From: a virus | Reading direction: 5' to 3' (one strand) | Virus record (IMG/VR): IMGVR_UViG_3300049855_000064 | Location: 1-25,818 of that record | DNA length: 25,818 nt | Part shown: piece by piece, positions 45 through 23,555 of the stretch | How positions within the stretch are numbered: the first letter of the stretch is position 1 | How the letters are laid out: each line of letters opens with the position of its first letter | Translations under genes and position numbers: made by a program | The notes under the pieces: model-generated | Told to the model about the DNA's origin: nothing | Seen by the model: only the letters and a program-made list of their open reading frames with translations | Databases searched by the model: none

Positions 45-371
45 ATGAAGACTATCACTCGCAAAACTCTTGACAAGATCCTGGCTGCGGAAAAAGAGTA
101 TGGCGAGCCGTTTGGCCAGATTCTCCGTGGATTCGCCGCCGACGGCGAGAGCATTCATTCTGTGGCGCAGATCCTGGAAATCCCGTACCCAACATTCAGG
201 GTCCTGGACGCCGTGCAGGATCCGGGTATCGAATGGCCTGCCAGGAATCGGTCGTGCGCCTTCCGCGAATGCGATAGGGATACGGGCCGAATCCCCGAAA
301 CAGCGCGCCGTAACCTGGCGAAAGCTCGCAGTCTCCGATGGCCTAAGACGCAGTTGAAATTATTTTCATGA
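45..371 (+). CDS. small putative helix-turn-helix phage protein
   Basis: 108 residues. The ATG at 45 is preceded by GAGG at 33-36, a good ribosome binding site. Residues ~22-55 look like a helix-turn-helix: a helical segment, then 'SIHSVAQILEIPYPTFRVL', which resembles an HTH turn and recognition helix. The C-terminal half is Arg-rich (~66-100) with two Cys and may help bind nucleic acid. It is the first complete plus-strand gene in the window; anything upstream of base 1 is unseen. Its stop lies inside a palindrome-rich stretch that may control the next gene. I do not recognise a named family. A DNA-binding role is inferred from the HTH-like pattern and composition only. Confidence 0.6.
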   Translation: MKTITRKTLDKILAAEKEYGEPFGQILRGFAADGESIHSVAQILEIPYPTFRVLDAVQDPGIEWPARNRSCAFRECDRDTGRIPETARRNLAKARSLRWPKTQLKLFS

Positions 372-404
372 AGTAGTGTACACTTCCCGAGATGCGTATA
401 GAAT
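354..404 (+). promoter_or_regulatory. putative promoter and operator-like palindromes
   Basis: In the 82-base gap before the gene at 454, a -35-like TGTACA (377-382) and a -10-like TAGAAT (399-404) are separated by 16 bases. A second -35-like TTGAAA lies at 354-359. Two palindromes sit here: TTCATGAA (365-372) and the 10-base AGTGTACACT (375-384), which overlaps the -35-like box. The layout suggests a sigma70-type promoter with a repressor site. The box matches are partial, so this is a candidate only. Confidence 0.35.
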
Positions 405-453
405 ACCCGACATGCCAAGGCAATTCCGCTAAGGCAAAACGAGGATCTACCCA

Positions 454-885
454 ATGAACGTTCACACCGCTAAGACTTCTGAACTGATCGCTTTCTACAA
501 CGCCAACTCTGGTCGTGACCCGATCAAGAAGTTCACCGATCGCAAGACCGCTGAAGCGCGTGTCCAGGCTCTGGTCGACTACATCGCGATGACTACTCCG
601 GCTCCTGCCGCCGAGCCGACTGAGTCAGTTAAGCCTAAGCGTGAGCGCAAGCCCGCCAAGGCTGCCAAGGTTAAAGCTGAGAAGGTCGTCAAGTCGCGTC
701 GTCGTGATAAGGTCTACGCGATTCTGGTTGAAGACTGCGTCACTGTCGCATACCTCGCCAAGCAGCTTAAGACCGTTGAGCGCAACATCCAGGGCGATCT
801 GTTCTTCCTTCGCAAGGAAGGCTACAACATCATTCGCGTGTCGATCGACGGCGAAACCCGCTACCAGTTGGGAGAGTCAAAATGA
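454..885 (+). CDS. basic DNA-binding-like protein with H1-like linker
   Basis: 143 residues; ATG 454 has GAGG at 441-444. Three parts are visible. Residues ~8-40 carry a motif seen in small phage and bacterial proteins (SELIAFYNANSG, then KKFTDRKTAEARV). Residues ~48-85 form an Ala/Pro/Lys/Arg-rich linker like a histone H1 tail. Residues ~86-140 resemble a winged helix: helix, 'VAYLAKQLKT' turn, 'RNIQGDLFFLRKEG' helix, then a beta hairpin. The codons are strongly host-like (AAG, CTG, CGT/CGC, ATC) compared with its neighbours, which suggests high expression. It may bind or compact DNA, or act as a transcription factor; both are inferences. The ATGA overlap with the next gene points to translational coupling. 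Confidence 0.72.
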   Translation: MNVHTAKTSELIAFYNANSGRDPIKKFTDRKTAEARVQALVDYIAMTTPAPAAEPTESVKPKRERKPAKAAKVKAEKVVKSRRRDKVYAILVEDCVTVAYLAKQLKTVERNIQGDLFFLRKEGYNIIRVSIDGETRYQLGESK

Positions 886-1121
886 GTCGCAAACTTTGGG
901 AAATCGCTCAGGAAATTCGCTTTGAGTGGGGCAGCAACTTGGCGCGGGAGGCGAAGCCTTATCTGGATGCGATGCAAGACCTCGAGACAATCAACGATAA
1001 GTACTACGCTGACGATGCCCGGACTGTCGTCAACTGCTTCCTGGCTAACGCGGGAGGTTGGCGTGGTGAGAAAGCTCGCGAGCTAAAGCGCGAACTGAAA
1101 CTAATTTTGCAGGGGAAATGA
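882..1121 (+). CDS. conserved small phage protein, unknown function
   Basis: 79 residues, starting in a 4-base ATGA overlap with the gene at 454, so probably translated by coupling. The sequence is mostly helical, with an opening 'SRKLWEIAQEIRFEW', a central acidic part and a closing 'GWRGEKARELKRELKLIL' basic amphipathic helix. This pattern recurs in small conserved proteins of proteobacterial phages, but no function is known to me. There is no signal peptide, membrane segment or metal motif. It belongs to the same operon as its neighbours. Confidence 0.7.
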   Translation: MSRKLWEIAQEIRFEWGSNLAREAKPYLDAMQDLETINDKYYADDARTVVNCFLANAGGWRGEKARELKRELKLILQGK

Positions 1122-1122
1122 C

Positions 1123-1464
1123 ATGATCAAGTTTCGTGAAGAGTTGAAAACGCCGGTCGAGATGGGCCGCGTTGCTGTGCCGTACATGCCGACTGCAGTG
1201 ATGAGTGAGCACAGCAGCCCGGACAGCGCAGGCTTCCCTTACTCGACGCGGTATGAACTCCGCGCACGAGTCGGTGTGATGTTTACAGCCAACTCGGCTG
1301 AGTACGAACGCGCTCGTGAGAATGCCGAACGACTGCTGCTGTCGATTGTCTACGCTGAGGTTCTGGACGCTATCGCGCTAGCAACGTCAGCGGCAAGTGC
1401 GGGTGACTTCCACGCTACGTGCGACATACTGCAATCTCTGCGCCGTGAACTGGTGACGCCATGA
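1123..1464 (+). CDS. small phage protein, unknown function
   Basis: 113 residues. It starts one base after the previous stop, with AGGGG just upstream as ribosome binding site. The N-terminal half (~1-50) is extended and Pro/Ser-rich. The C-terminal half (~58-110) is helical, with the pattern 'AERLLLSIVYAEVLDAIALA' followed by 'GDFHATCDILQSLRREL', like other small phage proteins of unknown role. There is no signal peptide or membrane segment. Its stop overlaps the next start by four bases. Function not recognised. Confidence 0.68.
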   Translation: MIKFREELKTPVEMGRVAVPYMPTAVMSEHSSPDSAGFPYSTRYELRARVGVMFTANSAEYERARENAERLLLSIVYAEVLDAIALATSAASAGDFHATCDILQSLRRELVTP

Positions 1465-1850
1465 GCGAAGTCGGCGCAGTATTCAAACGAGTGGGGGCGC
1501 CCTTGCGGGTGCCTCGTCAGTCCTGGGGTTCGGTGCGCGAAAGCGACGGGACGGTCTTCCTTCGCGTGTGGCAGGAAGAATGCTGCAAGATCAATGGCGT
1601 CACGTGCGCTTTGATTCGTCGCTCAGAAGGCATCAGCACGTTCGGCCGCACAGAACGGCTCCGGCATATCCAACTCATTAAGGAGGGCGCTCCCTGCTTA
1701 CTGGTGATGTGCCAGGCCAAGGATCCGAAGGCGCGGCCTAAGTCAATAGCCAAGGTCAACGAACGAGAGTTGTTCGTAACCAACAGTCAAGTCGTCGAAC
1801 TGAATGGCGATGTCTACCTCCAGATGACGATGGAACGGGTGAAAATATGA
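1461..1850 (+). CDS. hypothetical phage protein
   Basis: 129 residues, start in an ATGA overlap with the gene at 1123. It looks like a soluble, beta-rich protein: many short strands separated by Gly, Pro and charged turns, and a basic overall charge. Two adjacent Cys (~36-37) and further single Cys are present without a clear metal-binding spacing. No known domain is recognised. Its end overlaps the next start by four bases (ATGA), which keeps it inside the coupled operon. Confidence 0.65.
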   Translation: MSEVGAVFKRVGAPLRVPRQSWGSVRESDGTVFLRVWQEECCKINGVTCALIRRSEGISTFGRTERLRHIQLIKEGAPCLLVMCQAKDPKARPKSIAKVNERELFVTNSQVVELNGDVYLQMTMERVKI

Positions 1851-2218
1851 GCGACTTTATGCGTGACCGCGCCGAGGCGCTGAGCAAAGAGAACTTCCAG
1901 TTGAAGGGTCGTCTGCGCGAAATAAACGACTTGGCGTGGATGTACCGTTGGGCTTCGATCATCTTGGGTGTCATGTTCGTCGTCGCGTTGATGACCCCTC
2001 GCGAAGTCTGCGCTGCGGAGTATCCTATCGTTGCGAAAAACTGGTGCAGCGAATTCGCCGATGGCTACTACACAGGCTTTTGTTGGAAGGGGCACTGCGA
2101 AGAAGAAGCAGTCCCTCCCGTCATGTGTCCTTACCCGAAAGGCGATGAGGATCCGTACACTCGCGGATTGAAAGAAGGTCTGAAGGCAGGCGAACTTTAC
2201 AGGCAGGAATCACTATGA
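1847..2218 (+). CDS. single-pass membrane protein with Cys-rich outer domain
   Basis: 123 residues, starting in an ATGA overlap. Residues ~4-30 form a charged, probably cytoplasmic coiled-coil helix. Residues ~34-50 ('RWASIILGVMFVVALM') form one membrane segment. The rest (~56-123) should lie in the periplasm and holds Cys at 67, 79, 84 and 94 (with another at 55, beside the membrane), enough for two disulfides. The 'CAAE' just after the membrane segment could also be a cleavage site, which would make it a secreted protein. The layout fits an inner-membrane protein facing the periplasm, such as an exclusion or envelope-sensing factor, but no family is recognised. It shares an operon with a lipoprotein and a small membrane peptide. 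Confidence 0.65.
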   Translation: MSDFMRDRAEALSKENFQLKGRLREINDLAWMYRWASIILGVMFVVALMTPREVCAAEYPIVAKNWCSEFADGYYTGFCWKGHCEEEAVPPVMCPYPKGDEDPYTRGLKEGLKAGELYRQESL

Positions 2219-2697
2219 ACGAGCCCATATTCCCGAGCATCGACGAGTTGCCCACGCAGTCAGGCGTGTACGACTACAGGGGCCGCATCTGGGCGTTCTA
2301 CATGGACGCAGACGGTCTGCGCGGGCACAGCTTCGCGCAGGAAGACCAGTTGTACTACGGCAGGGGCAGGTTCTGGCGCCGCTACCATGATGGACAGCAG
2401 TGGACGCCGTGGGTCGAACGCGCGACAGTGCTCAAAGACGCGAATGTCAGTTACTCAGCGGGAAGCAAGCCCTTGGCGCTCGCACGCCTCGCCAACTTCG
2501 AGCTCGCCTATAAAGAGTGGTCTGATAAAACGGAATGGGTGCAGGACGAGATCAACGCAGGCACGATTAGCGCGAAGGCGCTGGGCAAACATCGCGCAGA
2601 CGTAATGACAGACCTGATTCGCGAGTTGCGAACCGAAGTGGAGCAGCTCAAGGCAGAGAACGAAGCGCTCCGCCTGAACAAAGGGGAAAAGCAATGA
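2215..2697 (+). CDS. hypothetical protein with C-terminal coiled coil
   Basis: 160 residues, start in an ATGA overlap. The N-terminal ~80 residues are rich in Trp, Tyr, Phe, Gly and Arg, with repeats of the type 'YYGRGRFWRRY' and 'GQQWTPWVER', which suggests a compact beta-rich fold. The C-terminal ~35 residues are a clear coiled coil ('LIRELRTEVEQLKAENEALR') likely to make dimers or trimers. There is no signal peptide or membrane segment. I do not recognise the family. The stop overlaps the next start (ATGA). Confidence 0.65.
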   Translation: MNEPIFPSIDELPTQSGVYDYRGRIWAFYMDADGLRGHSFAQEDQLYYGRGRFWRRYHDGQQWTPWVERATVLKDANVSYSAGSKPLALARLANFELAYKEWSDKTEWVQDEINAGTISAKALGKHRADVMTDLIRELRTEVEQLKAENEALRLNKGEKQ

Positions 2698-2969
2698 GCC
2701 GGATACTGCACATCTATGCAACACAACGAGAGGCGACCACAGGGAAGCGTGTGTTCACGTACTACAACGCAGGGGGCATCATGCAGGAGGGCAGGAACTT
2801 TCTAGTGATGCGCAACGGCGACGAACACTTCTGGCGCGTGGTTGATCAGGAGCTACTCGGGATGGAAGTCGACGCCGTGCTGGTCGACGAACACACCACT
2901 CGCAACTTTAAGATAGCGGACGTCGCTCGCTTCGACGCGCTGGTAAAAAGCCGCGTCCGTCCGCGGTAA
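2694..2969 (+). CDS. small hypothetical phage protein
   Basis: 91 residues, starting in an ATGA overlap with the gene at 2215. It looks like a small soluble alpha/beta protein with alternating strands ('RVFTYYNAGGIMQEG', 'FLVMRNGDEHFWRVV') and an acidic middle part. No known domain is recognised. It ends the first run of coupled genes; a 73-base gap follows before the lipoprotein gene. That gap is GC-rich, holds a small hairpin (GGTGC 3008-3012 with GCACC 3019-3023) and has no obvious promoter or U-tract. Confidence 0.6.
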   Translation: MSRILHIYATQREATTGKRVFTYYNAGGIMQEGRNFLVMRNGDEHFWRVVDQELLGMEVDAVLVDEHTTRNFKIADVARFDALVKSRVRPR

Positions 2970-3042
2970 GTGGCTAGCGGCCAGTCACTCCCAGGGGGTG
3001 ATTGTCCGGTGCGCCATTGCACCACTATCCAGAGGAAGCAAC

Positions 3043-3480
3043 ATGAAAAACGTAATGACAATCGCGTCGCTGACAATGATGACGCTGGTAGTGGGCTTGA
3101 GCCTGCTGGTGTCCGGATGCGGTAACCCTGAGGTCGGCTTTGACACGCTCGAAACGGCGCGTAAGCAGGCTAAAGAGAACGCCGGATACAACGCCAAGGC
3201 GTGGCGCGCCAATGCGCCTGGCATGGGCGGTGTAGGCATCATCGAGAACGGCGATTCGACCCAGACTCCGGACTGCCCCCAGGGCGACGGATGGGCTACC
3301 ATCGAGCTAGTCAATCCGACTACCGCCGCCAAGGTCGGCAAACTCAAGTGCAGCACGGTGTCCAGTGCCGTAGGCTGTATGACCGCAGATGACTTCCAGA
3401 CAAAGTCGTACGCCAGCGATGACGGCCGCTGCCAACCGCTGACCAAGGTGCCGCATCCGCTGCCGAAGATCGCGCAGTAA
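3043..3480 (+). CDS. phage-encoded lipoprotein
   Basis: 145 residues from ATG 3043, chosen over an upstream start at 2998 because AGAGGAAG lies just before it and the protein then begins with a proper signal peptide. After Lys2 comes a hydrophobic stretch (~4-22) and the lipobox Val-Ser-Gly-Cys, with Cys26 as the lipidated residue. The residue after Cys is Gly, not Asp, which by the usual rule sends it to the outer membrane. The mature part (~119 residues) is polar and holds four more Cys. Phage lipoproteins often block superinfection or modify the host surface; that role is an inference here. It overlaps the next small gene by one base (TAATG). Confidence 0.72.
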   Translation: MKNVMTIASLTMMTLVVGLSLLVSGCGNPEVGFDTLETARKQAKENAGYNAKAWRANAPGMGGVGIIENGDSTQTPDCPQGDGWATIELVNPTTAAKVGKLKCSTVSSAVGCMTADDFQTKSYASDDGRCQPLTKVPHPLPKIAQ

Positions 3481-4804: not shown

Positions 4805-5485
4805 TTATGGGTTGTGCAGTCCGACATTTATCTGGTACATCTGAACGAAAGACACGTCTCCCGCTTCTGAGTAGACACCCGGCGTGTACGTCCCTGCGGG
4901 CAGTTTGTCGCTAAGACATAGACGACTGTTGTCGTTTTCCGGCACGATGTTCATCTGGTTCCACTCAGGGTAAGGGAATGTGAACCCAGAACCGTCGCCT
5001 GCGAGGAAAGTGACTCGCCCCCCGAAGGGTATTATAGTACCTTCCTTTGGAAGAGTGATAGGCGTGGACACGCGAGGCGTATCTCTAGGCGGCGCGCTGG
5101 CTGATGCGACAACGCCTGCGCCGCCTCTCAGAACGACAACAGCGGTGTGAGTGAAGCCCCCGCTCATGACAGTCATCGGGACGGAAGTCGCTCCGTTCCC
5201 TGCGCGCGTAAAGACTCGCACTTCGTATCCGCCAGCGATACCTGCGAATCCCGTAGTAGCTAATTGCGTCCACCCCGCAGGACTTGGAGCGACGCCCGCA
5301 GCGACCGCGTCGAAGAAAAACGACACGAACATGAGCAGTCTGTCCGACGAAGAATTCGCGGGTAACGCGAGCGTATACGAGTGTCCCAGATTAGCGTCAG
5401 CCTCGTACTGCCATAACGGAGCCTCTGTCGGAATGAGGGGGCTCCCGCCACCGCCCCCTGCTGTCATCATCGCGCGCCGGCTCAT
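4805..5485 (-). CDS. putative second tail fibre / tip protein
   Basis: 226 residues from ATG 5485, which overlaps the fibre stop by four bases (ATGA); the longer frame up to 5629 lies inside the fibre gene and is not used. The N-terminus has a Gly-rich linker (MTAGGGGGS). The rest is beta-rich, with segments such as 'SDRLLMFVSFFFDAV' and 'AGWTQLATTGF', a pattern seen in jelly-roll-like domains of phage tip and fibre proteins. There is no catalytic motif. Location between the pyocin-knob fibre and a fibre-assembly protein supports a receptor-binding or tip role. The specific fold and function are inferred. Confidence 0.55.
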   Translation of the reverse strand: MSRRAMMTAGGGGGSPLIPTEAPLWQYEADANLGHSYTLALPANSSSDRLLMFVSFFFDAVAAGVAPSPAGWTQLATTGFAGIAGGYEVRVFTRAGNGATSVPMTVMSGGFTHTAVVVLRGGAGVVASASAPPRDTPRVSTPITLPKEGTIIPFGGRVTFLAGDGSGFTFPYPEWNQMNIVPENDNSRLCLSDKLPAGTYTPGVYSEAGDVSFVQMYQINVGLHNP

Positions 5486-6798
5486 GATGCGGCCGCCATA
5501 GACTTGCCGCCCTGGAAGCCGAAAATTGATATCGTCCCGCCGTTCAGTCGCCGCATCATGAACGTGTAGATCGATTGACTGGCGTATGCGGGCACTCTCC
5601 CTTCCGGCCACAAAATATCCGCGGGCCACGTTACAGCAAAATTGCCGATGACGTTGACGTTAAACACAACCGACTCATCGTCCGCTGTCAAGGCTGAACG
5701 GTCGATCGTGACAGTTGTGTTGGCTGTCATCCAGAAAGAAAGGTCAGCCCCGTTCTGCGGTTGCAGGTTGACGGATCCGCCGCCCACGAAGCCGTAGTTG
5801 ATGAACCGCTCGATGACGTTGTTGAGGCGCGGAGTAGTGCCCGCCAGAACGACTTCGGTCCATGCGCCCCAGGTGTTTAGAGCGCTACTCGTACGAACCC
5901 ACGAGCGAGGAGCGATAGCGCTGCCTCCTACGACGTCAGTCCAAGTTTGCTTAACGATAGTCGCGCTGAACCGCTCAACGAATACAGATCCGTTCAGCGC
6001 AGCGCCTGTCGGCCGGGTACCTAAAGACACGCCGCTAGAGAATCGCATCAGGCCTGAAGGCATAGAGGCGGTCGTGTCAAGACTGACGATCACAGGCGCG
6101 TTGCCCGTGTTAAGTATCCCGCCGTCACCTACACGAGTAACTCTATTCGCTGTGGCGTCTAAACTGCCGGTCGTCAACACGAGATTGTTCTGAGTCCAGA
6201 GTTCAGTCCACGCGCCCCACGCGTTGACGTTTGCAGTTCTCAACCAGATCCGCGGAGTCGTGCTGCCTGCTGTCAAGTATATTTGAGCAGCTTGTCCGAC
6301 GGTGGCGCTGGTCGTACGAACGTAGTGCTGAACAAGACCGCCTGACTGACCCGTGGGCGGAGTGAAGTTCGCCATGCCTGAGGTGTGGACGTAAAACCCA
6401 GTGCGGTCGGCGCTGGGATCGTCTAGGTTATTCGCGACCTGACCACCCGTCCAACCGAGGCCGAAAGCGCCCACAGCCATAAGACGCCCGGCTGTCGGAT
6501 CAAGCGGGCCCGTCTGCACGTCTCTACCTGCCGCCGTGCCTAGTCCAGAGATAGTCGCCTGACCTGTCGTCGGATTGATCGTGAACAAAAGCACATCCTG
6601 GTCGCCGTCATAAAGCATAAGCTCCCAGACAGTGGGCGACACTTGCTTCAGCCACATGAAACCCGCCAGAACGCCTTCAGGGCGACTAGTGCCCGTCTGC
6701 GTCGTCTGCAAAGCGGGCGCCCAGAGATTCAGCCACGCAGCAAGCTGCGAGCCCGTTACGACATCAGGATCGATGAAGGGTAAGAGATACTGACTCAT
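5482..6798 (-). CDS. tail fibre with pyocin-knob-like repeats
   Basis: 438 residues; ATG 6798 has AGGAG seven bases upstream and overlaps the stop of the gene at 6795 (ATGA). The N-terminal ~130 residues look like a baseplate-anchoring part. The middle has at least two knob-like repeats ending in 'RTANVNAWGAWTELW' (~205) and 'RTSSALNTWGAWTEV' (~310), the hallmark of pyocin knob domains found in phage and pyocin fibres. The C-terminal ~110 residues are a beta-rich domain ('TVTIDRSALTADDESVVFNV') that may cap the trimer. It should bind the host surface. Receptor and host range cannot be read from the sequence. Confidence 0.75.
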   Translation of the reverse strand: MSQYLLPFIDPDVVTGSQLAAWLNLWAPALQTTQTGTSRPEGVLAGFMWLKQVSPTVWELMLYDGDQDVLLFTINPTTGQATISGLGTAAGRDVQTGPLDPTAGRLMAVGAFGLGWTGGQVANNLDDPSADRTGFYVHTSGMANFTPPTGQSGGLVQHYVRTTSATVGQAAQIYLTAGSTTPRIWLRTANVNAWGAWTELWTQNNLVLTTGSLDATANRVTRVGDGGILNTGNAPVIVSLDTTASMPSGLMRFSSGVSLGTRPTGAALNGSVFVERFSATIVKQTWTDVVGGSAIAPRSWVRTSSALNTWGAWTEVVLAGTTPRLNNVIERFINYGFVGGGSVNLQPQNGADLSFWMTANTTVTIDRSALTADDESVVFNVNVIGNFAVTWPADILWPEGRVPAYASQSIYTFMMRRLNGGTISIFGFQGGKSMAAAS

Positions 6799-16618: not shown

Positions 16619-17029
16619 TTACACTGTGTAGTCGTGTTGATAGTTAACGTCGACGTACGCCAGAAACCAGCGGCCGTCAGACTCGGGGTTGTTGCCGGGT
16701 GACACAACATTCAGAGCTTTGATCTTAGGCGACATGACAGACCAGCCACGATAGTGAGTCGCCACAGCGTCGCCTAAGTTGATAGCAGCATCGTCGCCTG
16801 AACCTGAGATCGCAGCTATCCAGACTCTCGCTGTTCCTGTCTCTCGATAGCAGGCGGGCTTGCCGATGCTGATAGCGCGGTCATCGCCATTGATGAACTC
16901 AAGTGACATCCACAGAGGGTCGAGCGTTTCGTTATCGACTCTTGTGGCGATAGATTCGACGTATTGAGTAGTCGGGAAAGCCGCCTGCAGTGTGTCACGA
17001 AAAGTCGTTCTGACAGATTTGCTCGCCAT
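16619..17029 (-). CDS. tail terminator-like protein (gpU position)
   Basis: 136 residues; ATG 17029 has GAGGAGG upstream. The N-terminus is a helix ('TTFRDTLQAAFPTTQYVES') followed by beta strands, as in gpU and DUF4128-type tail terminators. The stretch 'PLWMSLEFINGDDRAISIGKP' and the C-terminal 'FLAYVDVNYQHDYTV' fit this fold. It should form a hexamer ring that caps the tail tube and joins the head. Place directly before the tail tube gene supports the call. The sequence match is by pattern only. Confidence 0.68.
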   Translation of the reverse strand: MASKSVRTTFRDTLQAAFPTTQYVESIATRVDNETLDPLWMSLEFINGDDRAISIGKPACYRETGTARVWIAAISGSGDDAAINLGDAVATHYRGWSVMSPKIKALNVVSPGNNPESDGRWFLAYVDVNYQHDYTV

Positions 17030-17030
17030 G

Positions 17031-17387
17031 TTAGTTCCTCCTCAACTCTACCAGATAAAGGGGCAGAGTGTCTTGGGCCATAATAGGATGCGCGTCGGCT
17101 ACCAACGACCACGTGCCTGCGAATCCGGCGATGTTCGCCTTTATAATCGAGAACTTCTTAGGTGGACCTGCCAAGAAGTCGTCGGGGTTTATGAGCGCAC
17201 TCGCCGCCGAACTGTCAGCGTCTTGCACCAGAGCAGCGGACACTGTGTCGCGGTAAAGAACGACCTTGATGTCTTTGCCGACAGTATCGCCGACGTCGTA
17301 GTACCGGACTGTCGAGCCGTACGCCTGCAGCATCGCTTTGGTAGTAGCCGCGATTTCGGCGAAGTCAATTACTGGAAGAGAAGTCAT
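17031..17387 (-). CDS. neck / head-closure-type protein, unassigned
   Basis: 118 residues; start overlaps the stop of the gene at 17387 (TAATG), with AGAGGTG close upstream. N-terminal helix ('FAEIAATTKAMLQAYGSTVR') then a beta-rich body, including 'KVVLYRDTVSAALVQ' and 'PPKKFSIIKANIAGFAGTW'. Size and place, between the connector region and the tail terminator, suggest a head-closure (gp16/FII-like) or tail-joining protein. No family motif is firmly recognised. It shares the late operon with close spacing on both sides. Confidence 0.6.
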   Translation of the reverse strand: MTSLPVIDFAEIAATTKAMLQAYGSTVRYYDVGDTVGKDIKVVLYRDTVSAALVQDADSSAASALINPDDFLAGPPKKFSIIKANIAGFAGTWSLVADAHPIMAQDTLPLYLVELRRN

Positions 17388-17947
17388 TACACACCTCTCG
17401 AAGGCAGAAGACGAGCGATCATGCCCGCGGTCTCAAATGTGAAATTTGCGGGCGCGTTTCGGGACGCAGTCATCAAAGTGACGATGTCATTCAACTGCAG
17501 ACTCACGTACGCGGTCATGTTGACAGAAACAGGTTGACCTGCGCCCATCATCTGGGAGTCAGAACGGAAAAATACATTCGGAACGCCGTTGACGCCGAGA
17601 GCAAGATCCATGACTTCCGCAGAACCTGCTGAGCAAGTAACAGAGACGGTGAATTCGTAATCAGCAGCGAACTTAGCTGTGAACGTCTGAGCGGGCACGC
17701 TAAGAGCTATCTCAGCCGAGTCTCGAGTTTCGCCGCTCGTAAACAAGTTAGCGATAGTGCGGTAGCTCGTGTCAGAGAACGTGTACGCCAGAGGAGTATT
17801 CCGCAGCATATAGGCGCCAGTTGACCGAAGCGACTCAACCATGTCGACCAAGAGCTGCCGCAAAATCGCCGGAGTGATAGCGCCCGCGCTGTTGTCAGTC
17901 AGCACAGACTCTATTCGATCGATTAGCGGATTCGTTAAATAGCGCAT
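17387..17947 (-). CDS. putative virion surface protein, TNF/C1q-like beta-sandwich
   Basis: 186 residues; ATG 17947 with AAGGACTT upstream. Residues ~1-45 form a helix pair ending in 'ITPAILRQLLVDMVESL', a segment seen at the N-terminus of phage fibre and display proteins. Residues ~60-186 are a run of beta strands with alternating hydrophobics ('AQTFTAKFAADYEFTVSVTC', 'QPVSVNMTAYVSLQLNDIV'), like jelly-roll TNF/C1q domains, which form trimers. This suggests a short fibre or whisker on the neck or head rather than an internal joiner. Its role is inferred from layout; no catalytic motif is seen. Confidence 0.55.
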   Translation of the reverse strand: MRYLTNPLIDRIESVLTDNSAGAITPAILRQLLVDMVESLRSTGAYMLRNTPLAYTFSDTSYRTIANLFTSGETRDSAEIALSVPAQTFTAKFAADYEFTVSVTCSAGSAEVMDLALGVNGVPNVFFRSDSQMMGAGQPVSVNMTAYVSLQLNDIVTLMTASRNAPANFTFETAGMIARLLPSRGV

Positions 17948-17958
17948 TCGTCAAGTCC

Positions 17959-18579
17959 TTACGCGTAGGGTGAGAAGAAACGGCGAAGAGTGAAGGCGTA
18001 CGGTTGCAGAATCGTAGGCGCGTCCTCTACGTCGTAAGCCGATGAGGTGACTCCGCTCGTGTCAAAAGCGACAGCCAAGGCGCCGCTGCCTAGGCTCAGA
18101 CTCTTCAAAGGCGTCGATCCGCCACCGCCTCCCGTAGTGCCTCCCGCCACGGCGATGCCTGAATAGTCTTTGCAGCAGTTAGCGTAAGCGGTCGCCAAGT
18201 CTATCGGGACGTCCGTCTGCGGGAATCCGCCCGTGTAAGTGATCGTCGCTCTCGTGGAGCTATTGCGATAACCCAAGAGAATGTGCCCGTTGCGTCGATC
18301 GAGTTTCGGAACTTCTACGGCTACGTCATCGATCAGCAATTCGGTGACAACCTCCAGAGGGAAACGAAAGACAGAAAGACGAGGCCCGACTTCCATTTCC
18401 TCGACGATGTCGACCCCATGCGCAAGTCCGCGTCTGCAGTAGTTCTCGAAAAGATCAGTCACGACCGGAGCCGCCGCAGTCAGCGCTGCGTCATGCTCGG
18501 TACCAGTAATGCCGAGAATAGTCTTGATCTGCTCGAGGGTGATCAGAAACAGTTCGTCGTTGTATACGATGTCAGCCAC
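17959..18579 (-). CDS. head-tail connector protein (gp6-like)
   Basis: 206 residues. The start is GTG 18579 with AAGGAGG four bases upstream, slightly close spacing. The first ~105 residues follow the HK97 gp6 / gp15 connector pattern: 'FLITLEQIKTILGITGTEHD', then 'TDLFENYCRRGL', then 'FRFPLEVVTELLIDD' and 'TITYTGGFP'. Such proteins form the ring under the portal. The last ~55 residues include a Gly/Thr-rich linker ('VAGGTTGGGGGSTP') and an extra tail not needed in the basic connector. Confidence in the family is good. Confidence 0.75.
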   Translation of the reverse strand: MADIVYNDELFLITLEQIKTILGITGTEHDAALTAAAPVVTDLFENYCRRGLAHGVDIVEEMEVGPRLSVFRFPLEVVTELLIDDVAVEVPKLDRRNGHILLGYRNSSTRATITYTGGFPQTDVPIDLATAYANCCKDYSGIAVAGGTTGGGGGSTPLKSLSLGSGALAVAFDTSGVTSSAYDVEDAPTILQPYAFTLRRFFSPYA

Positions 18580-18588
18580 GTTGCCTCC

Positions 18589-19479
18589 TTAACCCTGCGC
18601 GATAATGCTTTCAAGATAGTCGATTCGATCGCTCATGCTTTTCAGCATTTCGGCGACCGGGCCCGAAAAGTCTACGTCATGGCTGCTCGTCTGACCGTCT
18701 GTCTCAATGACGATGACCATCTTCAAGCCTGCCTGCTCAATCGCCAAGATCCGACTGCCGTCTTTGCCGTCAGCCCCGGGCTTCCCAGGAGCCCCGGCCA
18801 GACCGCGTTCACCTTTCCCGCCTCGCCCTGCGAAAAGATGGGCTTGACCGCCCGACCAGATAAAGCAACCGAAGTCCTTGACGTAGAGATCGCCTTCTCC
18901 GTAAGTCTTGCCTTCAACGTAGCCGCCCGTAAAGTTAAAGCCGAAACTTCCTACTCGCTGCCAGTCGTCTGACTCCCCGGGAGCTGACGCAGTGTCACGA
19001 ACCGACTTGAAAAGTTGACCATGATAAGCGGTTACGAAGCAGCCTTCGCGATAAACCTCGCCTTGGACGTAGATTTTAGTCTCAATGCCAAGACCATCGG
19101 CCCCAGGTTGTCCAGGTTGTCCGTCAGCTCCGGGTTGCCCAGGCTCGCCCTTGAGTTTGTCGATATGCTTCTCTACGAGGTCAGCTACGACGTCACTGAC
19201 TAGAACAGACTCACCAGGTTGGCCGGGCTCTCCAGGCTCGCCCTTGAGTTTGTCGATATGCTTCTCAACAACTAAGTTCGCGACAATCTCAGGGTCAACG
19301 GACTGACCAGGTTCGCCAGCAGGTCCGGGTTCGCCAGCAGGTCCGGGTTCGCCAGCAGGTCCGGGTTGAAGAGCAAGCGTCTTAACCGTTTGCTCTAACT
19401 CAAGTACCATATCCACCACGGGCTCGAGAGCAGCGACCAGGGCTTTCTCTCTGCCGTGCATTAGTGTCGTCTTAGGCAT
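18589..19479 (-). CDS. collagen-like virion protein with carbohydrate-binding-like domain
   Basis: 296 residues; ATG 19479 has AGGAG upstream and overlaps the portal stop by 8 bases. An N-terminal helix (~10-36) leads to Gly-X-Y stretches at ~39-58 (PGPAGE three times), ~80-90, ~110-130 and ~219-242, broken by helical spacers that repeat 'VEKHIDKLKGEPG'. Residues ~135-212 look like two carbohydrate-binding half-modules ('VYREGCFVTAYHGQLFKSV' and 'YVEGKTYGEGDLYVKDFGC'), similar in pattern to chitin-binding type 3 (CBM5/12) repeats. A C-terminal helix (~275-295) may trimerise. It probably forms a thin fibre on head or neck. Binding target unknown. Confidence 0.72.
   Translation of the reverse strand: MPKTTLMHGREKALVAALEPVVDMVLELEQTVKTLALQPGPAGEPGPAGEPGPAGEPGQSVDPEIVANLVVEKHIDKLKGEPGEPGQPGESVLVSDVVADLVEKHIDKLKGEPGQPGADGQPGQPGADGLGIETKIYVQGEVYREGCFVTAYHGQLFKSVRDTASAPGESDDWQRVGSFGFNFTGGYVEGKTYGEGDLYVKDFGCFIWSGGQAHLFAGRGGKGERGLAGAPGKPGADGKDGSRILAIEQAGLKMVIVIETDGQTSSHDVDFSGPVAEMLKSMSDRIDYLESIIAQG
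19139..19266 (-). repeat. 35-base direct repeat in collagen-like gene
   Basis: Two identical 35-base copies at 19139-19173 and 19232-19266, 93 bases (31 codons) apart, encode the same 'EKHIDKLKGEPG' spacer. The copies have no silent differences, which suggests a recent duplication or ongoing gene conversion. Confidence 0.85.
19311..19364 (-). repeat. three perfect 18-base tandem repeats (PGPAGE)
   Basis: The unit GTTCGCCAGCAGGTCCGG (plus strand) is present three times in a row at 19311-19328, 19329-19346 and 19347-19364. It codes for six residues of the collagen triplet stretch. Perfect repeats like this can change copy number by slippage while keeping the frame. Confidence 0.92.
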
Positions 19480-20866
19480 GCCGCTTGCTCCTGATCAGCG
19501 CGTAAGTAAGAGCCTGAGTCACCTCGGCGTCAATTTCTTCGTCTTCGGTGTCGTCTTCATCGACAGGTGTTATTTCGGACTCAGTAACTGCGGGCTCGGT
19601 TGAAGTCTTCAATTCTGACGCAGCAATGTCGTTGATCAAGCTGATCGGGGTCATCTGGCGCTGCAAGAATACCTGGTCACCGCCTTCCACTTTAGGAAGC
19701 TGCTCTCGTTCACGAGCTTCATCGGGACTGTAGATGCCTCCCTGGACACCCTTCGAAAGCCCTTCCATTCGGGTCTTGAAGTCGATCCGCAAAAGAGAGT
19801 CGACCTTGAAGTCAATGCGGTCGCCTATAGGCAAGTTGAATGCTCGCTCCAGACTGCATTCGATGTTCTCTACCAAGGCGCCTAGACCGGTCGCAAGCCA
19901 GAAGTTTATCAGCGCTTCAGTCGAGCCAGAAGCCGCGTCGCCACTCGACACCAGAGCCAAGGGCATTCCGAAAACTCTCGCTACGTCTTCGATGCTCATC
20001 TTCTGAGCCTCGATCAACTGCGAGTCTTGACTACTGATCGACAAGGGTTGGAATGTAAGACCGCCCGCTAAGATCGGGATACCGCCCGCGTTCATGCCTT
20101 TAGCCTGGTCGTCGAAAGCCGCTCGAAGTTCACGAATCTGATCGCGCTTCAACAACTGATCAGTCGACAACACACCGCTAGGGCGATTCATGCGAGAGAA
20201 GAACGCAGCCTGGTTGCCTGACAACGCCACGTTTGTTCCAAGCGCCATGGCAGCGGCTTTGATCGGTGACTCTCCGATAAGCGGGTGCCGCGGAGTGTAT
20301 TGACGAAAGTGGATCATGTCTCGAGCGGGCACCATGTACTGAATGCCTGCGGGTAGCATAGGGTTGCTGCCTATCGAATAAAAAACTTCGCCCGTGCTTT
20401 GTTCGACGTAAGGACTGCAGGAATTCTTAGGCAGAAGATGCAAAGCACTCACTGCGTATCGCTCGTCGCGAATAATCAGAGCGAAAGCTTCGCCTTCAAA
20501 ACCCATCATAGCGGACACGTTCAGAATGAACTGCGGCCAAGTCTCGTATCCGTTAGGGTACCGTAAGACTCGGCTCGCGGGCGATGTAGTAATGGCGACC
20601 CAACGGCCGCCTTCGAGTCGTTCGTGAACAGCGGGGCAAAGAGCTAAAGCCCGAGCCGACTGCATGACGCATGCGTAAGCTATAGGGACGTTGTTCGCAG
20701 AAAAGTTAACTCCCAGGGTGAGACCTTCTTGAAAGCCATCGCCGAAAGGAATCGGGAAAGGCGTGCCCCAAGCGCCATAGCCTATGGCAGGGCCGCGGTA
20801 GCTGCCTTCCGCGCTCTTACGAGACAACCCGCTGACAAACGCGTTAAGCCGAGAGAATGCACTCAT
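19472..20866 (-). CDS. portal protein, HK97-like
   Basis: 464 residues; ATG 20866 has AGGAG nine bases upstream. It follows the HK97-type portal pattern: 'NNVPIAYACVMQSARALALC' near the N-terminus, 'LPKNSCSPYVEQSTGEVFYS', 'RDMIHFRQYTPRHPLIGESP' and 'RVFGMPLALVSSGDAASGST' in the stem/clip region, and 'YSPDEAREREQLPKVEGGD' near the C-terminus. The last ~60 residues are acidic. It forms the dodecamer ring through which DNA enters. Unusually, it lies after the capsid gene rather than between TerL and the protease. It overlaps the collagen-like gene by 8 bases. Confidence 0.9.
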   Translation of the reverse strand: MSAFSRLNAFVSGLSRKSAEGSYRGPAIGYGAWGTPFPIPFGDGFQEGLTLGVNFSANNVPIAYACVMQSARALALCPAVHERLEGGRWVAITTSPASRVLRYPNGYETWPQFILNVSAMMGFEGEAFALIIRDERYAVSALHLLPKNSCSPYVEQSTGEVFYSIGSNPMLPAGIQYMVPARDMIHFRQYTPRHPLIGESPIKAAAMALGTNVALSGNQAAFFSRMNRPSGVLSTDQLLKRDQIRELRAAFDDQAKGMNAGGIPILAGGLTFQPLSISSQDSQLIEAQKMSIEDVARVFGMPLALVSSGDAASGSTEALINFWLATGLGALVENIECSLERAFNLPIGDRIDFKVDSLLRIDFKTRMEGLSKGVQGGIYSPDEAREREQLPKVEGGDQVFLQRQMTPISLINDIAASELKTSTEPAVTESEITPVDEDDTEDEEIDAEVTQALTYALIRSKRHA

Positions 20867-20867
20867 G

Positions 20868-21083
20868 TCAGCGAGCTCCTTTCGTCGTTAGTTCTTTGTT
20901 CTGATACGAAGGACGAGAACGACGGGGCTTGATAGCCAAAAGCGCGCGCCCACCGACCCGAGGATCCTGAACCTTCCGCGCGTTGATCAACTGAGTAGCA
21001 AGATCTTGCTCACAAGCTACGAAGCCCGTCGCGTAGTTCAGCTCCTCGATCGGTCGATACGCCCAAACAGTCGTTTGTGTCAT
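20868..21083 (-). CDS. small hypothetical protein before portal
   Basis: 71 residues; ATG 21083 with GAGGTG four bases upstream. Its stop is just before the portal start. The N-terminal half is mixed helix/strand with one Cys. The C-terminal half is basic ('ALLAIKPRRSRPSYQNK'). No domain is recognised. Place and coupling suggest a minor head protein or an assembly helper. Confidence 0.58.
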   Translation of the reverse strand: MTQTTVWAYRPIEELNYATGFVACEQDLATQLINARKVQDPRVGGRALLAIKPRRSRPSYQNKELTTKGAR

Positions 21084-21091
21084 GACGCACC

Positions 21092-21550
21092 TCAGGTTAC
21101 TGTGATCGAGTTAGAAGTGGCTTCGACGCTGCCGCCTGCGTTCGTGACAGTTTCTTCCACGGTGATCGCGGCGCCTTGGTCTTCGACCTGAGTCGTGTAA
21201 GTCAAACCGACTTCGCCTGGGATCGGAGTCCCGTTACGGTTCCAGGTACGAGTCACAGTCGGAGCGGGTGAGCCGTAGTAGTTGCCCTGCGTGCATGTCA
21301 ATACGGATCCGACAGGAGCGGCGCCCGCGATGACAGGATCCTCAATGACGACAGGACCGTCGCCCAAGTCAATGATCGCTGTGTTTCCCAACCACTTGAT
21401 CTCGGGATTAGGGGTGAGTTGAAGACCGGAGTTAACTCGATCGGCAAATGCCGAGGCGATCAACATATTAGCGACTGCGTCAGGACGAACATCGAGAAAG
21501 CCAAGACGATCGCCAGTCGATGGGTGCTTTGTATGGAGCCAGATTCGCAT
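21092..21550 (-). CDS. Ig-like domain protein, probable capsid decoration
   Basis: 152 residues; ATG 21550 has GAGGAGA upstream. The N-terminal ~65 residues are a mixed helix/strand domain that may bind the capsid. Residues ~70-152 form an Ig-like beta-sandwich: 'VIAGAAPVGSVLTCTQGNYY', 'TRTWNRNGTPIPGEVGLTY' (core Trp) and 'ITVEETVTNAGGSVEATSNS', as in bacterial and phage Ig-like repeats. Phage Ig domains are common on capsids and tails and may hold the virion on mucus or carbohydrate. It is the first gene after the terminator that follows the capsid gene, so its level may be set by read-through. Confidence 0.7.
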   Translation of the reverse strand: MRIWLHTKHPSTGDRLGFLDVRPDAVANMLIASAFADRVNSGLQLTPNPEIKWLGNTAIIDLGDGPVVIEDPVIAGAAPVGSVLTCTQGNYYGSPAPTVTRTWNRNGTPIPGEVGLTYTTQVEDQGAAITVEETVTNAGGSVEATSNSITVT

Positions 21551-21620: not shown

Positions 21621-22985
21621 TTAACCGACCCACGCCACCGCTGTCAGTTCCTGCACCAGGCCCGAACTACGCAGCTTGGCCCAGTCTACGTCCAGCATCA
21701 GACGCAGCGCCCAGGAGTTCGTCTGGAAGAGCGAACGTGCCGGAGCTGCTACAACGTTCGGGGTGCCGGCAGTACCGATCGCCACAGGGTTGACGCTTTC
21801 CTCGTGAATGACGGCTTGCTGGCTAGCCAGGAACTGAGGGCTGCCAATCGCAGTGGTGATGTGGGTGAAGTCAACCAAAAGCACCACGTTGTCCGGCATG
21901 TTAGTGGTGACAATGGCCGGGATGTTGGCCAAGCGACCGTTCGCAGTTTCCGGGAACTGAAGACTGCCGGTAGCGGTCAGCGCCATCGACACAGTGAACC
22001 AGTTCTTCGGAGACATCAGCCAGCGGGTGTTCGAGCCGCCCATGTGAGCTTCAGCCATCGCAGTCAGCATCGCTTTCAAGTCGGCGACGATGTCTGCAGT
22101 GGTGCCTGACCCAGAAGCGGCACGAGTATCGCCGCCAGGGATAGCATTCCGGATACCCGCTGGGCGGATAACAGAACCTGCCGTCGCGGAGATAAACTCG
22201 CCGTCCAGGTAAGAACCAGTATCCTGCACCATCGCCATCTGGAAATACGAAGCGAGGTCGATCGAGCTGCGAGTCAACATCTCTTCAGTCGCAGACAGGA
22301 TCACGCCCATATTCTTGGGAGTAAGTGCCTGACTGGTGAACTGCAGACCCTTGACCGGAATCGGCCCGCCTTCAGCGCGGAAAGTCGCCGAAGCGTCTTC
22401 GATCCCGCCAGTACGCATCGGGATAAAGATGCTCGAGGCGCCGTTGAACTGATGCTGCTGCGTCAGCGGAGTGGCGCGAGCCATCAGCGATTCTTCACGC
22501 AGCAGATCCATGAAGGTGCCATAGATCATCTGAGTGAGTTCTTGCGCATAACCAGCCACGTTAGACATAGCAGGATTCTGGGCGGCCTTGATCACAGTCT
22601 GCAGCGCTTCGTTATCACCGAAACGAGCGATAGCCACTTGCTGAGGCGACATACTCTTGACTCGCGATTCGAAAATCGACAAAGCCAGTTTGCCCAGCAG
22701 CAGATCAGTGTCTTTCGACTTGCTCAGGTGCTTGATCACAGCGGCAGCAGGTTGAGCGGTCGTTGCCTGGGTGCCCAAAGCCTTTTCAGCTTTTTGCAAA
22801 GTTTCCAGACGAGCGGTCGCAGTTTCCAGTTCAGCGGTGCGTTCAACGACTGCGCCTTCAGCAGCAGCCAGCGCGTCCTGGTTGTCGCCAGCTTCCTCCA
22901 GGGCCTTGGTGGCGGCCAAGAGGAGATCACGAAGTGCGACGATTTTGTCTTGCATTTCTTTAATTTGTTCGGAAAGCGTCTTCAT
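21621..22985 (-). CDS. major capsid protein, HK97 fold
   Basis: 454 residues; ATG 22985 has GAGG eight bases upstream. The N-terminal ~75 residues form a long coiled coil ('EQIKEMQDKIVALRDLLLAA' onward), like the HK97 delta domain that acts as scaffold and is removed by the protease. The main part from ~100 has HK97-type elements: 'EESLMARATPLTQQHQ', 'RTGGIEDASATFRAEGGPIP', 'LGVILSATEEML'-type P-loop region, 'WLMSPKNWFTV', and C-terminal 'WALRLMLDVDWAKLRS'. Codons are host-like, as expected for the most abundant protein. Sits between its own promoter (through the protease gene) and a strong terminator. Confidence 0.92.
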   Translation of the reverse strand: MKTLSEQIKEMQDKIVALRDLLLAATKALEEAGDNQDALAAAEGAVVERTAELETATARLETLQKAEKALGTQATTAQPAAAVIKHLSKSKDTDLLLGKLALSIFESRVKSMSPQQVAIARFGDNEALQTVIKAAQNPAMSNVAGYAQELTQMIYGTFMDLLREESLMARATPLTQQHQFNGASSIFIPMRTGGIEDASATFRAEGGPIPVKGLQFTSQALTPKNMGVILSATEEMLTRSSIDLASYFQMAMVQDTGSYLDGEFISATAGSVIRPAGIRNAIPGGDTRAASGSGTTADIVADLKAMLTAMAEAHMGGSNTRWLMSPKNWFTVSMALTATGSLQFPETANGRLANIPAIVTTNMPDNVVLLVDFTHITTAIGSPQFLASQQAVIHEESVNPVAIGTAGTPNVVAAPARSLFQTNSWALRLMLDVDWAKLRSSGLVQELTAVAWVG

Positions 22986-23000
22986 GGCAGTAGCCTCGAT

Positions 23001-23555
23001 TCAAGTTGGGATGAGTGATTTGCAATTGTCGAGAGCGACTGCCGCCCGACGGAGTGCGACCTTCTGTCCCAGGGTGAGCGACTGCTCAGGAACGAAGAGC
23101 GGATCTGGATTAAGGCCCAGAGCCAAAGCCTTGACTCGCACTGCCTCTGCGTTGCAGGGGACAGCTACGATGCTCGTTTCGAAAATGTCGATCTCTTTGT
23201 AGTGCCAGCCACCTACGTCATTCGGGACTGCAGTCCCCATGAAGCCGATGCTAGCCGACAAAGGCACGTCATCCTCGATAAGAATTTTGATCATCCGGCC
23301 AAGGTCAGTGCCTGCCAATTTCAGGGTGGCCAGGAGTCGACCTCCTTTCTCAGCACCGACTTCCCAGTACCCGACAATCTGCGTATGGTCGTGCCCGAAT
23401 AGGGCAGGAATTTTCTTGTTAGCGTTTTTGCGAAGAGCAACAGGATCTATCGTGTCCCCAGCTCTGTCGGGATTCTTCGTTGAAATAACCCAAGTGCCAT
23501 CGCCCGAGTCGGAGGCAGCCTTTTCGATCGCGACTGTCAAGTTCTTAGTTTTCAC
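23001..23555 (-). CDS. prohead protease, HK97 family (S78)
   Basis: 184 residues; start GTG 23555 with GGAG eight bases upstream. Catalytic residues fit the HK97 protease: His55 in 'LFGHDHTQ' (His57 is also possible), Ser102 in 'LSASIGF', and Glu126 in 'FETSIVAVPCNAEA', which matches the family pattern E-x-S-x-V-x-V-P. It should cut the delta domain of the capsid protein inside the prohead. Overlapping the GTG is an ATG directly followed by TGA (ATGTGA), which gives no product. It shares a short transcript with the capsid gene. Confidence 0.9.
   Translation of the reverse strand: MKTKNLTVAIEKAASDSGDGTWVISTKNPDRAGDTIDPVALRKNANKKIPALFGHDHTQIVGYWEVGAEKGGRLLATLKLAGTDLGRMIKILIEDDVPLSASIGFMGTAVPNDVGGWHYKEIDIFETSIVAVPCNAEAVRVKALALGLNPDPLFVPEQSLTLGQKVALRRAAVALDNCKSLIPT

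Follow-up and report, generated by a model that had tools for sequence, protein, structure and literature searches.

The analyzed window is the complete virus record IMGVR_UViG_3300049855_000064 of IMG/VR (G000 in our set; 25,818 bases). Its right two thirds carry, on the minus strand, the late genes of an HK97-type siphovirus, as identified by Pfam and PHROGs matches. In the order of transcription these encode TerS, TerL, protease, major capsid protein (MCP), a protein with an immunoglobulin (Ig)-like domain, a 71-aa protein, portal, a collagen-like protein, connector, a protein of the tumor necrosis factor (TNF)/C1q type, a 118-aa protein, tail terminator, tail tube, tape measure, tail tip protein J, and fibers. 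The initial annotation of the window had singled out the Ig, collagen, and TNF proteins as possible surface-display proteins, and all three genes are indeed intact, at the positions given there, and interspersed on the minus strand with the genes for capsid, portal, and connector (Table 1). The fold of the TNF protein comes from a confident structural model, and those of the Ig and collagen proteins from sequence profiles. Each of the three proteins is of a known kind; their combination within 4.2 kb is unusual. The more interesting result is a widespread and mostly unannotated family of TNF-fold proteins, encoded beside phage neck genes and sharing a common N-terminal motif.

The TNF-fold protein and its family

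Taken alone, the TNF protein has no match in Pfam, PHROGs, NCBIfam, PDB, phage sequences (tblastn), or 40 related viral records, and the AlphaFold2 (AF2) model of the single sequence is useless (predicted local distance difference test, pLDDT, 34). The family was first indicated by a non-significant tblastn match (E 6) of 28 residues, positions 12-39 of the protein, to the N-terminus of a 204-aa Kagunavirus protein whose gene occupies the same slot downstream of the head-tail adaptor. The latter belongs to PHROG_3614, present in 538 phage records and annotated in some of them as 'neck protein'; a homolog 92.6% identical to it is carried by Escherichia phage SonjaBuckley_Bas74. An equally weak match near the adaptor genes of mycobacteriophage Adzzy was dropped as chance. 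Motif-guided scans of viral contigs yielded more homologs, some of equal length and layout.

With a 27-row alignment (26 homologs and the window protein), AF2 produced a model with pLDDT 89.6 and a predicted template modeling score of 0.82, in which helices at residues 5-15 and 26-40 precede a beta sandwich. Foldseek matches of this model include BclA (E 6.5e-8) and C1QL2 (1.1e-6), as well as ExsFA, EDA, 4-1BBL, Bdellovibrio Bd2734, and a Photorhabdus TNF-like lectin. In the PDB the model scores highest against one chain of the portal-tail complex of cyanophage A4 (E 2.3e-8), and its best viral match can be superposed along the full length (TM 0.90). The TNF/C1q-type jelly roll suggested by the initial annotation is confirmed at the level of this model and its matches to the BclA, C1q, and TNF structures. 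A hidden Markov model (HMM) built without the window recovers the protein with E 1e-26 (2.3e-10 for the N-terminal part and 2e-13 for the C-terminal part, the best of 5000 shuffles reaching 0.009), values that are somewhat optimistic because the sequence-gathering scans used patterns derived partly from the window. The protein has no match to the PHROG_3614 profile at E 0.01 and thus belongs to a wider superfamily rather than to PHROG_3614 itself.

Among full-domain genes of the family with near-duplicates removed, 27 of the 28 loci have a connector, adaptor, closure-position, or MCP gene within 3 kb, although these represent about five arrangements and not 27 independent events, because some of the neighbor references come from the same groups. 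In the window, the gene follows the gp6-like connector. In Guernseyvirinae it follows the Ad1 adaptor, between the connector and the next neck gene, and some of these proteins are named 'neck protein'. In the L129 group it is preceded by the protein that follows the PHROG_442 connector. In podovirus-type contigs (L099-L104, L121-L126) it lies between the MCP and the adaptor-position gene and matches PHROG_6013, 'tail protein'. The TNF gene is missing from L009, the relative closest to the window (58% identity in the portal), where the connector adjoins the 118-aa protein. A tandem of two clearly different TNF-family genes was observed in one contig (L123:1242-1817 and 1825-2382); the pair may form a knob of two components or reflect a duplication that is diversifying.

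These neighborhoods bear on an alternative in which the TNF and collagen proteins are fibers of the tail side or tail tip, with genes merely placed in the head-neck cluster. Many PHROG matches of both the collagen proteins and the TNF family are named tail fiber or tail, and TNF- and C1q-like heads are generally common on tail fibers. We nevertheless consider this very unlikely, given the 27 loci next to connector, adaptor, or MCP genes and the window's own tail fiber genes downstream of J (5482-6798). A neck appendage is the likely identity of the TNF protein.

The N-terminal motif of the family reads DNxxGxITPAxLR. In 17 divergent proteins its N, G, I, and R are invariant and its D and P nearly so; the window protein carries both this motif and the connector neighborhood typical of the family. 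The motif also heads long fiber proteins of 370 to more than 1000 aa with GTSGTSGLNG collagen-like or coil repeats (L106-L112, L132, L113, and L110 from about position 2940-2990). Because the C-terminal parts behind the motif vary widely while the genes adjoin the connector, the motif may be a shared neck-docking peptide. A broader proposal is that the necks of tailed phages from unrelated lineages, siphoviruses as well as contigs of the podovirus type, have a common socket for this peptide, the TNF protein of the window being one such plug-in. The motif would insert onto the connector or adaptor ring, and the interchangeable heads would be a TNF/C1q knob, collagen-like fibers, or other fibers. 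We offer this proposal tentatively, as a possibility that falls short of even chances. The family would have escaped naming because its single sequences match nothing.

The collagen-like protein in the post-portal slot

The start of the collagen gene overlaps the portal stop by 8 bases. Its collagen call holds, with Pfam PF01391 matched at E 4e-9, over the curated cut-off, and several GXY blocks. The spacer EKHIDKLKGEPG occurs twice between these blocks (19207-19290 and 19096-19190), and non-collagen spacers are likewise present in the relatives from L012 and L002. This pattern suggests that the stalk may change in length through duplication of spacer and collagen units. In the family as a whole, the collagen region ranges from a few triplets to long stretches, and a 90-residue core is the constant element. 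One relative (L002:4944-7934) is longer, at 997 aa or more, and has additional modules, with one CBM_5_12 match (E 3.4e-4) located after the common core.

In the window and in all close relatives whose sequence extends past the portal (L002, L009, L010, L012, L014-L019), the gene directly after the portal encodes a homologous core. A post-portal gene with at least five contiguous GXY triplets was found at 39 of 80 portal loci, compared with 5 of 639 other genes there. The cultured phages PAJU2, SP-016, SOVA965, and RHph_X2_26 have the same kind of collagen gene in this slot. Their cores are homologous to that of the window at a moderate level: hhalign aligns the window-type core with the core of the PAJU2 and enterohemorrhagic Escherichia coli (EHEC) type over 38 columns (E 3.3e-5, probability 72%). 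By its position and its GXY runs, the window protein belongs to this family. In EHEC-type prophage records (hits H84-H95), the post-portal collagen gene is labeled 'portal protein' or 'portal protein B', apparently a naming error passed on from record to record.

The carbohydrate-binding-like modules reported by the initial annotation are borne out only in part. A core resembling carbohydrate-binding modules of families 5 and 12 (CBM5/12) is weakly visible: the top three PDB matches of the core profile are all CBM5/12 domains (E 0.035-0.15), and Pfam CBM_5_12 is matched by 4 of the 10 core-family members (best E 0.0023). Thus, on profile evidence, the fold is likely. The presumed canonical tryptophan of CBM5/12 (AKWWT-type motif), with which these domains stack on sugar, gives way to an invariant Asp-Thr in each of the 10 aligned cores. 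Consequently, the core may serve structure rather than sugar binding, and binding of sugars by it appears doubtful.

In a different explanation, the collagen and TNF proteins are structural or assembly factors of the neck that clamp the joint of portal and connector or seal the packaged head, and their beta-rich modules have no adhesive role. The lineage retains the collagen gene though the collagen length runs from almost none to long, and the core lacks the canonical tryptophan yet retains invariant Y, R, D, T, W, and G positions. The N-termini of the TP901-1 neck protein cover the portal/adaptor interface (PMC10747895), providing a precedent. This explanation is unlikely, however. The TNF protein cannot be a universal completion factor, because L009 lacks its gene, and both the highly variable collagen length and the additional modules of the extended L002 protein fit an exposed fiber. 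A trimeric fiber of the neck or portal vertex is the likely identity of the collagen protein.

The Ig-like protein and neighboring genes

The C-terminal part of the Ig protein (residues 66-151) matches PHROG_12736, virion structural protein, with E 2.7e-11 and has tblastn matches in 61 phage records. The longest match of the protein is to Stenotrophomonas phage Moby (36% over residues 18-146), where the relative is annotated as a capsid decoration protein with similarity to Hoc. The PDB matches of a five-row profile (the window and four phage relatives) include a solved tail protein of a phage with an Ig domain (9c2d, E 5.8e-11) and pb10, the decoration protein of T5 (8zvi, E 0.0019). The Ig call thus holds, and the protein has the domain expected of a Hoc/pb10-type decoration protein. 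A sub-threshold Pfam match to DUF1254 (E 0.023) was rejected as chance.

Tail, esterase, and fiber proteins are among the many phage proteins that contain this Ig domain, so the Ig protein could instead be an adhesive accessory of a general kind, picked up by chance, that has no set place on the capsid and sits, for example, on the tail. This is quite improbable: the best named relatives are decoration proteins, and a small single-Ig gene next to the MCP gene recurs in other phages, directly after it in Ochrobactrum phage OH and with one small gene in between in Sinorhizobium NV1.1.1. Most likely, as judged from these similarities, the Ig protein is a Hoc/pb10-like capsid decoration protein.

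The interval between MCP and portal contains other genes in the relatives: an SGNH hydrolase in RHph_X2_26 (L007:6032-7246), a 358-aa fiber-like protein in SOVA965 (L005:4281-5357), and a proline-rich protein in L009. Therefore, this interval appears to be a slot in which accessory genes are exchanged. A search of the 40 related viral records, uninformative in the absence of a positive control, did not detect the Ig protein. Both the Ig and the TNF protein are absent from the nearest relatives of the window and look like independently acquired add-ons.

Among the neighboring genes, the 71-aa protein has homologs at the same place (about 50%) in L009, L012, L013, L017, and L018 and no family match; it is probably a small head protein. 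The 118-aa protein is a probable next neck protein in the stopper position. As a lone query the portal found no relatives among the viral contigs, which were recovered with a portal alignment as the query; a scan of genome contigs gave four portals only, all distant. The window encodes protease and capsid in two genes (21621-23555), its closest relatives in a single fused gene (L009:5017-6933, L002:360-2426). At least eight small plus-strand genes in a row (45-3480) converge on the late operon. Their only matches are PHROG_4730 and PHROG_13953, both of unknown function, and most have no family.

Table 1. Features of the late operon considered in the analysis, with positions in the window
Feature	Position	Strand	Basis
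TNF/C1q-fold protein, 186 aa, between connector and next neck gene	17387-17947	-	AF2, Foldseek, HMM
N-terminal putative docking motif, residues 1-42; DNSAGAITPAILR at 18-30	17822-17947	-	conservation, model helices
TNF/C1q-type beta sandwich, residues 44-180	17408-17818	-	AF2, Foldseek, HMM
Collagen-like protein, 296 aa	18589-19479	-	Pfam Collagen
N-terminal helical/coil segment, residues 1-36, putative trimerization or docking	19372-19479	-	pattern in common with relatives, by inspection
Interrupted collagen region; GXY blocks at residues 40-60, 80-91, 111-128	19096-19362	-	sequence
CBM5/12-like core, residues 132-221, kept across relatives	18817-19086	-	alignment, PDB/Pfam matches, hhalign
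Second collagen block, residues 220-243	18751-18822	-	GXY run
Ig protein, 152 aa, first gene downstream of MCP gene	21092-21550	-	PHROG_12736, Moby, and pb10 matches
N-terminal ~65 residues of Ig protein, putative capsid-docking part	21356-21550	-	no significant family match
Single Ig-like domain, residues 66-151	21098-21355	-	PHROG, tblastn, profile
MCP	21621-22985	-	Pfam/PHROGs
71-aa protein, upstream of portal	20868-21083	-	context
Portal, synteny anchor	19472-20866	-	Pfam PF04860 E 9.6e-69
gp6-like head-tail connector	17959-18579	-	PF05135 E 1.5e-5, PHROG_442 E 1.5e-9
118-aa protein, probable next neck gene (stopper position)	17031-17387	-	37% homolog straight after connector in L009
Tail terminator	16619-17029	-	Pfam/PHROGs

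Proposed function and comparison with known systems

The reading we favor, with confidence a little better than even, is that the head and neck operon encodes three separate virion appendages, two of them at the neck. A structural role in the virion is indicated by context, and the location at the head and neck is well supported by comparative genomics. The Ig protein would be a dispensable decoration of the capsid, with its N-terminal segment on the shell and its one Ig domain facing outward. The collagen protein would form a trimeric fiber anchored near the portal and connector, built of an N-terminal coil, an interrupted collagen stalk of variable length, a compact CBM5/12-like knob, and a short second collagen. 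The TNF protein would form a trimeric knob that the helix-turn-helix of its N-terminal motif fixes to the connector ring, with the TNF/C1q sandwich outward. Jointly they may provide weak, reversible, and multivalent contact with glycans or other structures of the host surface before the tail tip commits.

Several known systems make such contacts conceivable. Adhesive decorations are represented by pb10, Hoc, SPP1 gp12, and phi29 gp8.5 (PMC7602432). Head spikes of RcGTA bind the capsule (PMC10218006), and the TNF-like fiber tips of Bdellovibrio bind sugars (PMC10769870). Neck passage proteins of TP901-1 are tipped with CBMs (PMC10747895), and phage A-1(L) has neck fibers (PMC10966104). Some observations weigh against the three-appendage reading. 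The carbohydrate-binding module of the A-1(L) neck fiber does not bind to its host (PMC10966104), a result that cautions against assuming a host ligand. The CBM5/12-like core has lost the canonical tryptophan. The N-terminal ~65 residues of the Ig protein have no significant match to any capsid-docking domain, sharing with the Hoc-like proteins of Moby and ACP17 only a short HPxTGxxL stretch (E 0.09-0.3, not significant). No solved structure contains the DNxxGxITPAxLR motif. Finally, the motif proposed as a dock also heads the long fibers, which may attach at other sites.

A further suggestion of the initial annotation fares less well. Binding of mucus, capsule, or biofilm is not specifically supported, as neither a ligand nor an animal host was identified; Ig proteins in general may bind mucus, but nothing here points to an animal setting. 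Nor do the three proteins belong together as a unit: within this phage lineage the collagen protein is conserved, unlike the Ig and TNF proteins. That all three occur together is accounted for by two slots with exchangeable content and one gene specific to the lineage.

Receptor studies of tailed phages focus on tail tips, whereas here two slots on the portal and connector side repeatedly hold folds of the adhesive type. If the TNF family does dock on the connector, it would reveal a common attachment point at the neck with interchangeable heads. Functions open to testing could then also be assigned to hundreds of proteins listed as 'hypothetical' or 'neck' in well-studied phages of Salmonella and E. 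coli.

The nearest counterparts of the Ig protein are T5 pb10, T4 Hoc, and N4 gp17, which are likewise small virion proteins with a C-terminal Ig domain. The Ig protein is of the same size as pb10 (152 vs. 164 aa), to which its profile match is weak but specific; its putative docking part, in contrast, is not recognizably homologous to theirs, and its binding to the capsid is proposed by analogy. For the collagen protein, the counterparts are the genes of PAJU2, SP-016, and EHEC prophages, which also directly follow the portal and combine a coil, collagen, and a CBM5/12-like core, but differ in the order of the core, the window type having a second, degenerate module. SPP1 gp12 is another collagen-like virion protein of a siphovirus; it is short and binds capsomers, whereas the collagen gene here is tied to the portal and encodes a CBM-like core. 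The TP901-1 neck passage protein and the A-1(L) neck fibers may be alike in being anchored at the portal or adaptor and bearing tip modules of the binding type (PMC10747895, PMC10966104), but they are far longer, and the likeness lies in their proposed placement and build.

The TNF protein shares its fold (Foldseek E 6.5e-8 to 8.7e-6) with BclA, C1q, TNF ligands, Bdellovibrio tips, and the Photorhabdus PLTL lectin, all of which are trimeric adhesive or lectin heads, at 9-17% identity and with ligand residues that are not conserved where compared. A close counterpart is the Guernseyvirinae 'neck protein' of PHROG_3614. Although direct similarity to the Kagunavirus protein is limited to the motif and the PHROG profile is not matched, the two proteins have in common the DNxxGxITPAxLR N-terminus, a length of ~200 aa, a TNF-type C-terminal part, and a gene located between the head-tail connector and the next neck gene.

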